The notes under the pieces: generated by a model
Database searches by the model: none
What the model was told of the DNA's origin: nothing
The model's input: the letters and a program-made list of their open reading frames with translations, nothing else
Translations under genes and position numbers: made by a program
Part shown: one piece after another, positions 31,629 to 34,600 of the stretch
How positions within the stretch are numbered: the first letter of the stretch is position 1
How the letters are laid out: each line of letters opens with the position of its first letter
From: Chamaea fasciata
Taxonomy: Eukaryota > Chordata > Aves > Passeriformes > Sylviidae
Direction: 5' to 3'
Assembly: GCA_029207755.1 (NCBI GenBank)
Contig: JARCOQ010000026.1
Coordinates: 248,001 to 312,000 of the forward strand
DNA length: 64,000 nucleotides

Positions 31629-34600
31629 ATGGGCTGTGTGCCCTGCAAGGAGAAGGGGGCTGGCAAAGGGCAGGCAGGGGGCGAGGGGGGCTCCCTCCAG
31701 CCCCCTGCCTCCCAGTACGACCCCGACCCCACCCAGCCAGGGGCCATCTTCACCCGCATCCCCGACTTCAACAACTTCCAGGGGCCAGCGGTGCCCTTGG
31801 CGCCATCCTTTGCAGAGCCGGGGGGCTTCCCCTCCAGCGTGCTGCAGACGTGGAGCGGGGGCATCACAGGTCAGCAGGTGGCTGGACGATGGCGAGGGGT
31901 GTTCACCTGCACCCCTGGGCTGCGAACCCTGGGGTCACCGCGGTGATCCTCTGTGTGGTCCCCTCCGTGTGCCACAGGTGGCGGGGTGACGCTCTTCATC
32001 GCCCTGTACGACTATGAGGCCAGGACAGAGGATGACTTGACATTCCAGAAAGGGGAGAAATTCCACATCATCAACAACACGTGAGCCACCCCCCCCGGGG
32101 CCTCCTGCCACCCCCAGCACCCACGCACCACCCCGGGGAGGCGCCTTTGTGCCGTGGGTGTCCCCCGCAGGACCCAGGCTGGGCACCCAGGCTCTGCCTG
32201 GGCTCCATCGCCCAGCACCAGGGCCATGTGTCGTGAGTTGAGCGGTCTCAGCAGAGATGGGTGAGGGAGAGCGGGGTCGGGCCGCGCTGTGTGCGGGCTG
32301 AGGAGGCACACGGTGGGCGGGTGTGTCCTGCTGTCCCTCCTCCTTCACGTTCTCTGTTTCTCTGCCCAGGGAGGGGGACTGGTGGGAGGCCAGGTCACTG
32401 AGCTCGGGTGCCACGGGCTACATCCCCAGCAACTACGTGGCCCCTGTGGACTCCATCCAGGCAGAAGAGTGAGTAGCGGGGAAAAGGGGATGGAGACAAG
32501 CCCCAGCCCCACCTGCCTCAGGCCCAGGTGTCCCTGCGAGCCCCGGCAGTGCCGCAGTGCTGGCACGGGGGTTCCGTGGTCCCCCAGCGGTGCCTGCCTG
32601 GCGCTGAGCCCATCACCGTGGCAGGTGGTACTTTGGGAAGATCGGGCGCAAGGATGCGGAGCGGCAGCTCCTGTGCCACGGCAACTGCAGAGGCACCTTC
32701 CTCATCCGCGAGAGCGAGACGACGAAAGGTACAGGGACAGGGGTGGGGACCCCAGGGGTCGTGCCCCACATCCCCCCCTGACCAGTGTCCCCACGTAGGT
32801 GCCTACTCCCTCTCCATCCGGGACTGGGATGAGGCCAAGGGCGACCACGTGAAGCACTATAAGATTCGGAAGCTGGACAGCGGGGGGTACTACATCACCA
32901 CCCGCGCCCAGTTCAACACCGTCCAGCAGCTGGTCCAGCACTATATAGGTAGGGTGGGGTGAGAAGCACAGGGGGGGCAGTAAGAGGGGTAGGGAAATCT
33001 CAGAAGACCGTTTGGTAAGAGACTGGGCTGACAGGGTTGAGCTGGGGAAGGAGGGGGCTGTTCTGTGGCTGGCACTCGGAGACTCCCTGAGAGTCTCCCC
33101 TTTTCCATGTCCAGGGCACAGGGAGTTCCCATTGTCTCGGTGGGTGGGCATCACCCACTCCCCGGGTGCAGCTGGGGGGACTGGGGGTCCCGCCCAGCCG
33201 GGGGGAGGGGGGAGCTGCCCCTGGGGCAGGTGGAGGTGGGTGCGTTTGTGTGTTGGGGGTGACTGGGTGATACAGGAGCCTTGGTGATGCCTGGGGTGGT
33301 GGGAGGGGAGCGAAGGGCTGGTGGGGTCTGTGCCCACCTTGACTGCTGTCCCCCTGCCCCCGTGTGCAGAGCGGGCAGCCGGGCTGTGCTGCCGCCTGGC
33401 TGTGCCGTGCCACAAGGGAACCCCCAAACTGGCCGACCTCTCAGTCAAAACCAAAGACGTGTGGGAGATCCCCCGCGAGTCTCTCCAGCTCCTCAAGAAG
33501 CTGGGAAATGGGCAGTTTGGGGAAGTCTGGATGGGTAGGGCCTGGTGGGCAAGCCAGGGCCAGAGGCAGGGGAGACATGGGGGTACCCCCAGGCCTGGCA
33601 CCCCACTGGGAAAAGCTCATGCCTGCCAGGACAGGCTGAGCGACACCGATTTGTTGGCATGAGGAATTATCCCATGTCCCGCTCTGGGCTCACAACGGGT
33701 ACCCCAAGACGCCCCATGTCACCTCTGCATGGGCAAGCAGACCCCCACTACAGATGGGACCACAAGACCAGGCCAGGGGGTCCCACCTTCGTCATCCTCT
33801 TCCTCTGGCATCCCGTGCTTGCTCCACTCGTGCATGCTGCCTTCATCCCATCACATCCCCTCCCTCCTCCTCCCTGCCTGTCCCCCATCCCCTGCAGAGT
33901 ACAACGACGGGTTGTGCCATCTGCTCACCCTCCCGTGCCCTGCTATGAAGCCCCAGACCCTGGGATTAGCTAAGGACGCCTGGGAGATAGCACGGGAATC
34001 CATCACCCTCGACAAGAAACTTGGCATGGGATGTTTCGGAGACGTGTGGATGGGTAAGGCTGGCCCAGCCAGCCGGGGTGGGCGAGCACAGGGGGGAGGA
34101 GAAGTCTTGTTCTGACCTGGCAGGGAGCATCACAGGGTGACAGGTGGTGCCCACTTGTGTGGGGGAGATGGAAACTTGGCACAGAATCCATGAAGGGTTT
34201 GGGAATGGGGTGAGGTTGGTATTGGGGTGAGGGGAACTCCTTGCCCTGGGTGGGATGCAGTGGGATCACAGTTCCTGCCAAGGGGTCCCTTCCTTGCCCT
34301 GCCCTGATTCCTTGCCCATCCATTCCTCCATCCATCCATCCATCCATCCATCCATCCATCCATCCATCCATCCACACAAGCACGAATCATGCGCCCACAC
34401 ACCCCTCCATCCACACACCCCTCTATCCTGGGCTGGCTGTCCCCTGGGCTCGTGGTGACTCTGTGTCCCCAACCCAGGCACATGGAATGGCACCACGAAG
34501 GTGGCGGTGAAGACGCTGAAGCCAGGGACCATGTCACCTGAGGCCTTCCTGGAGGAGGCTCAGATCATGAAGCGGCTGCGGCACGACAAGCTGGTGCAGC

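Follow-up and report, generated by a model that had tools for sequence, protein, structure and literature searches.

The FGR gene of the bird Chamaea fasciata carries two tandem, intact versions of exon 7, here called 7A and 7B, that correspond to the pair of alternative exons known from FYN. The reading that we favor, with a probability of roughly 0.88, is that this gene, which is probably the one described in chicken as YRK, retains an ancient 7A/7B pair that was already present in the common ancestor of FYN and FGR, that each transcript most likely takes one exon of the pair, and that 7A was lost from FGR on the line leading to living mammals. One locus would then produce two kinases differing in how the SH2-kinase linker engages SH3 in autoinhibition, and the choice of exon would set the presence or absence of a redox-active, drug-reactive cysteine in the glycine loop.

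The gene lies on the + strand of the window, by which we mean the whole stretch of 64,000 nucleotides that was analysed. Reconstruction from splice sites and reading frame yields one complete tyrosine-kinase gene with a coding sequence spanning 31629-36175 and 11 coding exons, counting 7A or 7B once. Its parts are as follows, resting on splice and frame reconstruction except where another basis is given:

31629..31869, + strand: first coding exon (ATG, MGC start), where the spliced frame opens; donor GT
31978..32080, + strand: coding exon, part of SH3 (SH3 by Pfam)
32370..32468, + strand: coding exon, end of SH3
32625..32728, + strand: coding exon, part of SH2 (SH2 by Pfam)
32799..32948, + strand: exon 6 (SH2), the shared upstream partner of 7A and 7B
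33370..33534, + strand: exon 7A, 165 nt, with the end of SH2, the long linker and a Gln glycine loop (splice and frame, genome search, tree and linker typing)
33535..33897, + strand: intron between 7A and 7B, 363 nt (comparison with FYN, where it is 475 nt in the same genome)
33898..34053, + strand: exon 7B, 156 nt, with the end of SH2, a SRC-like linker and a Cys glycine loop (splice and frame, genome search, tree and linker typing)
34478..34657, + strand: exon 8 (kinase N-lobe), the shared downstream partner
34764..34840, + strand: coding exon, kinase
34919..35072, + strand: coding exon, kinase, with the catalytic loop
35614..35745, + strand: coding exon, kinase
35967..36175, + strand: last coding exon, C-terminal tail and stop

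The original prediction, made from the letters of this DNA, had described 7A and 7B as tandem, free of lesions and identical in phase, and the reconstruction agrees: both are intact, with AG before and GT after each, the four proposed junctions (32948-33370, 32948-33898, 33534-34478 and 34053-34478) have the correct coordinates, and the linker and glycine-loop motifs named for the two exons are present in them. Its account of the exons as encoding linker plus glycine loop holds for those two elements but is slightly too narrow, as the end of SH2 is also coded there; in FYN, too, exon 7 is described as running from the final 14 SH2 residues through the hinge into the beginning of the kinase (excerpt of PMC10939263). 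Pfam recovers the SH3, SH2 and kinase domains with either exon in place. The protein would be 537 aa with 7A and 534 aa with 7B, and would grow to 589 aa with the two together or shrink to 482 aa if both were left out; since all four combinations are in frame and share a common stop codon, frame alone does not enforce mutual exclusion. Chance open frames are ruled out by the intact splice and frame structure together with the genome-wide matches of the 7A peptide. Elsewhere in the window, Pfam applied to 10 of the 60 open reading frames of at least 200 aa gave no domain and named no neighboring gene.

Several observations indicate that the gene is FGR, as had been proposed. We built a gene tree without exon 7 (39 rows; a quick tree with one support value, rooted on one SRC sequence), in which the window gene falls inside an FGR group containing human FGR 7uy0 together with fish, sharks, reptiles and birds (28 rows, SH-aLRT 96), FYN forms a separate group (7 rows, SH-aLRT 99), and three lamprey sequences lie outside both; the sequences of SRC, echidna, emu and one unnamed row drew long-branch warnings. 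Human FGR 7uy0 is also the best PDB match, aligned from SH3 through the kinase, and it bears out the earlier claim that the human protein has a 7B-type segment. The window gene shares 98% identity with starling Fgr and, when exon 7 is left out, 99% with a Sylvia warbler. Orthologues in the same clade go by Fgr or, in some of the records from lizards, sturgeon and birds, by Yrk. Chicken YRK is reported to be 95% identical to black swan FGR, and the Yrk gene to seem very similar to FGR, in an excerpt of PMC8247114 that nevertheless treats chicken YRK as a separate chicken kinase; neither that excerpt nor one of PMC2654924 mentions a second exon 7. From the orthologue names and the PMC8247114 excerpt, the window FGR is probably what was named YRK in chicken, a connection that the original prediction had not made.

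The two exons encode a coordinated switch of linker and loop. Segments were typed by the linker alone, anchored on GLC, and five without the anchor were left out. Among the matches listed for FGR, FYN and lamprey, all 110 7A linkers are followed by Gln in the loop and all 142 7B linkers by Cys, so that linker type and loop residue are concordant in all 252 anchored segments. The 7A linker is three residues longer and the 7B linker is SRC-like (KPQT...KDAWEI), with the 7B loop Cys corresponding to SRC Cys277. Excerpts of two papers bear on this residue: SRC Cys277 is oxidised, is required for activation of SRC by peroxide and is conserved in Yes and Fgr (PMC6207713), and the same loop Cys in SRC is hit by covalent FGFR drugs, with SRC, YES and FGR sharing it and HCK having Gln (PMC9814232). 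By analogy, we infer two kinases from bird FGR, a 7A form in which the longer linker is paired with a loop lacking Cys and a 7B form that combines the SRC-like linker with the Cys. The two would also be expected to differ in autoinhibition or SH3 access, judging from the title of Brignatz 2009 as cited in an excerpt of PMC9741552.

Comparison with paralogues in the same genome sets the pair beside that of FYN. Searched against the whole genome, the 7A peptide finds itself and then FYN 7A at 89%; an exon labelled FRK matches at 70% over 37 residues, other SRC-family exons at 58-60%, the window 7B at 56% (E 2.3e-7) and FYN 7B at 51%, with weaker matches after. The 7B peptide finds itself, then YES1 and SRC exons at 72%, FYN 7B at 60%, and then others. 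SRC was labelled by a near match to known SRC letters, and the labels YES1, FRK and those of the other paralogues are readings of the sequence. FYN 7A (FynB) and 7B (FynT) resemble the FGR exons in gene position, phase, the Gln/Cys split of the loop and exon length, which is exactly the same at 165 and 156 nt; the genes are nevertheless distinct in the tree without exon 7, and the exons are 89% (7A) and 60% (7B) identical in protein. Between FGR 7A and FYN 7A, 16 of the 24 fourfold sites differ and the DNA is only 75% identical. Such divergence at fourfold sites, with the protein 89% alike, points to long separation under strong selection and not to recent copying. Exon 7 of SRC and YES1 belongs to the 7B type, sharing 72% identity with the window 7B and having a Cys loop, and no 7A-like second exon was found near either within 10 kb in this genome (best other matches E 0.66 and 1.0; the SRC stretch contains no recognisable exon 6). 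The FRK-labelled exon is 7A-like in linker and loop, yet its start appears to lie within the linker, with an AG just upstream, and not at the start of exon 7; given this, the exon limits behind a published claim that FRK kept the FynB exon deserve checking.

The original prediction also held that the duplication predates the FYN/FGR split, and suggested a tree of exon 7 from FYN, FGR, YES and SRC. Ours comprised 62 peptides (48 different) over 54 columns under a simpler model without mixture, and its bootstrap had not settled. All 28 rows of type 7A, whether from FGR, FYN or lamprey, fall in a single clade (99/96), and a second clade unites the 28 of type 7B with SRC and YES1 (96/87); the 7B rows without SRC and YES1 are grouped at 78/73 and form no single clade once FRK and ABL are added. 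FYN 7A from shark, bony fish, frog, turtle, bird and mammal groups apart from FGR 7A (96/77, or 95/78 with lamprey). One listed lamprey protein (P0095) has both exons, and two others have 7A. A 7A clade that runs across genes supports the proposed age, and 7A and 7B of this locus do not form a recent bird-only duplication.

Two other histories could produce a FYN-like pair in FGR. A recent tandem duplication of exon 7 in birds or in FGR, with the likeness to FYN 7A convergent and one copy perhaps decaying, would suit the tandem layout of exons 363 nt apart, but AU tests reject it: forcing the eight bird FGR 7A/7B rows together lowers lnL by 76.6 (p 4e-11), and forcing all 37 FGR rows together lowers it by 38.5 (p 0.009). 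Seven sets were tested, four giving p values and three being clades already; the bird-only set was named beforehand and the all-FGR set was chosen after the tree. With both exons intact, and FGR 7A listed in sharks and rays, fish, newt and reptiles as well, this history is hardly credible. Gene conversion of FGR 7A by FYN 7A, under which their likeness would not date the pair to the ancestor, is attractive in that the two 7A exons are far more alike in protein than the two 7B exons. The 16 differing fourfold sites rule out a recent event of this kind, and both the separate grouping of FYN 7A from shark to mammal and the pair in a lamprey protein speak against it; conversion before the jawed-vertebrate radiation is possible, and we consider conversion as a whole improbable. 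The most reasonable explanation is that the pair was inherited from the ancestor of FYN and FGR.

How much older the pair might be is less clear-cut. Neither order of the duplication and the SRC/YES split is rejected (p 0.43 and 0.44). With FRK and ABL added, the best tree places 7A outside SrcB plus 7B at 48/76 with a long-branch warning, and the alternatives of SrcB outside (p 0.48) or 7A with FRK (p 0.48) both stand. The FRK-labelled exon reads DLSYKTVDQWEI followed by a GQFGEVW loop, close to the 7A linker with its GQFGEVW, which is one hint that 7A may retain an old state; on the other hand, a 2002 paper, cited in an excerpt of PMC5224494, makes FYN 7a the younger copy. No invertebrate SRC protein was among the matches listed in the three protein searches. 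We tentatively raise, as a doubtful extension, that 7A is the old SRC-kinase exon (long linker DLSxKTxDxWEI and the Gln loop common to SrcB kinases, FRK and ABL) and 7B a derived Cys-loop copy, that the pair predates the split of SRC, YES, FYN and FGR, and that 7A was lost early by SRC and YES and late by mammalian FGR. Were this so, most other vertebrates would still produce a second, perhaps neural, FGR kinase that has no redox-active loop Cys and that mammals have lost.

To place the loss, we typed 212 proteins, the union of three lists holding the best 120 of 7473, 6109 and 6472 matches; these are database proteins, many of them predicted, and the composition of the lists was shaped by the queries. 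Assignment to FGR or FYN used the part outside exon 7, and animal groups were assigned by hand from names. Among the matches listed, FGR rows with 7A, alone or with 7B, number 32 of 33 in ray-finned fish, 4 of 4 in cartilaginous fish, 1 of 1 in amphibians (a newt), 21 of 58 in birds, 2 of 16 in crocodiles, turtles and squamates, and 0 of 1 in lungfish; 14 of the 16 reptile rows and the single lungfish row have 7B only. Neither exon is the commonest state of the 58 bird rows listed (29, with 8 having 7B only); rows of this kind we take to be mostly isoform predictions, and 7A use may be minor in some groups. Human FGR is an orthologue of the window gene but has the 7B-type exon, and 7A occurs in 0 of the 40 named mammalian FGR rows among the matches listed (36 carry 7B and 4 lack both exons), a set that includes echidna and four marsupials; a mammalian 7A form was sought with a 7A-bearing query and was absent from its best 120 matches. 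Seven unnamed FGR-like rows (source 'lgn'), all 7B and none with 7A, were kept outside the 40 named mammals, and the unnamed row P0211, which scores nearly equally against FGR, FYN and lamprey, was retained in the trees.

The earlier view that birds kept both copies in FGR stands insofar as the pair is intact, but the retention is not specific to birds: reptiles, newt, ray-finned fish, sharks and rays have FGR 7A, and a lamprey protein has the pair. Mammals instead look like the odd ones out, and 7A appears to have been lost from FGR on the line to living mammals, a conclusion drawn from the listed proteins. Two eel 'Fyn-like' proteins among the rows, P0009 and P0021 (836 and 736 aa), have further Pfam domains in addition to SH3, SH2 and kinase, possibly from a fused gene model.

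The splice sites of the pair are similar to those of FYN at the donors and differ at the acceptors. FGR donors are GTAGGG (7A) and GTAAGG (7B), those of FYN in the same genome are GTATGG (7A) and GTAAGG (7B), and by the usual consensus the 7B donor is the closer in both genes. In FGR the acceptor is preceded by an AG-free stretch of 52 nt for 7A and 119 nt for 7B, the reverse of the layout in FYN of the same genome (88 nt for 7A, 30 nt for 7B). Human FYN 7a is repressed by U2AF and is preceded by a longer pyrimidine tract and AG-free zone (excerpt of PMC5224494); the reversed layout in FGR suggests, as a guess, a different default exon choice. The middle intron of 363 nt is not obviously too short for splicing.

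Public annotation contains four kinds of FGR isoform, with either exon alone, with the two together or without any exon 7. Listed forms include both and 7B only in Pseudopodoces, 7A, 7B and neither in Taeniopygia, and 7A and neither in Haemorhous; with the 589-aa and 482-aa forms present, exclusivity is not clean in an annotation where many isoforms are machine-predicted. FYN is reported with 7A, with 7B or with the segment skipped, one isoform being without residues 233-287, and FynB is described as more ubiquitous and brain-rich and FynT as present in thymocytes, splenocytes and some blood-cell lines (excerpt of PMC7352836). Many bird FGR isoforms of about 482 aa (e.g. P0030) lack both 7A and 7B, like that shortened FYN isoform. 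By analogy with FYN, one of the two exons most likely enters each bird FGR transcript, and we infer a neural bias of FGR 7A against a blood-cell bias of 7B. Chicken Yrk expression has been cited in cerebellum, spleen, lung and skin, and zebrafish yrk in vascular endothelium only (both in an excerpt of PMC2654924). If zebrafish yrk is orthologous to the window gene, its expression in endothelium fits a simple neural role poorly.

Exon use in birds might still depart from this pattern in either of two directions. Birds could have both exons and use one of them, 7A, with 7B rarely spliced if ever; we take the YRK cDNA to carry a 7A-type exon, as this would predict, and the listed isoforms cannot tell the extent of use. 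Yet 7B is open, has its AG and GT sites and the donor GTAAGG, accounts alone for exon 7 in 8 of the 58 bird FGR rows among the matches listed, and keeps its loop Cys in every anchored 7B linker of FGR, FYN and lamprey, so that we regard use of 7A alone as unlikely. Alternatively, 7A and 7B could mainly be used together or both be skipped, switching the form of the kinase instead of serving as alternatives. Every combination is in frame, and 80 of the 212 listed proteins have both and 35 neither (76 and 36 with a stricter anchor), but these counts reflect the choice of queries and gene prediction, in a protein with both, linker and glycine loop would each occur twice in succession, and FYN, with the same layout, takes 7A or 7B or skips the segment; joint use seems distinctly improbable. 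Use of one exon per transcript is the reading that we retain.

A 2022 paper states that FGR kept one of the two exons (excerpt of PMC9741552), which fits the listed mammals but not other vertebrates. No description of the 7A/7B pair in FGR or YRK was found among the titles and abstract openings listed by the searches or in the excerpts consulted; the isoforms are already in public annotation, and it is the evolutionary point that the searched literature did not contain. The result is of interest mainly for linking YRK with FGR and for assigning the loss of 7A to mammals. YRK, an apparent bird-only extra of the SRC family with neural and blood expression, would be explained as probably FGR with a FYN-like exon that mammals lack. 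One clade would have lost half of an exon pair that is older than the divergence of two vertebrate genes and that others have retained, a natural experiment, and results from mammalian FGR (blood-restricted, with a Cys loop and covalent inhibitors) may not transfer to bird or fish models.

Two repeats lie close to the exons described here. Upstream of the FGR start codon, at 30872-31286, is a degenerate 20-base tandem array of about 20 copies with 65% matches and the unit AGGGGTGTTTCAGCCTGTGC. The intron between 7B and exon 8 holds a CCAT microsatellite of about 15 copies at 34316-34374, the length variation of which could influence splicing.
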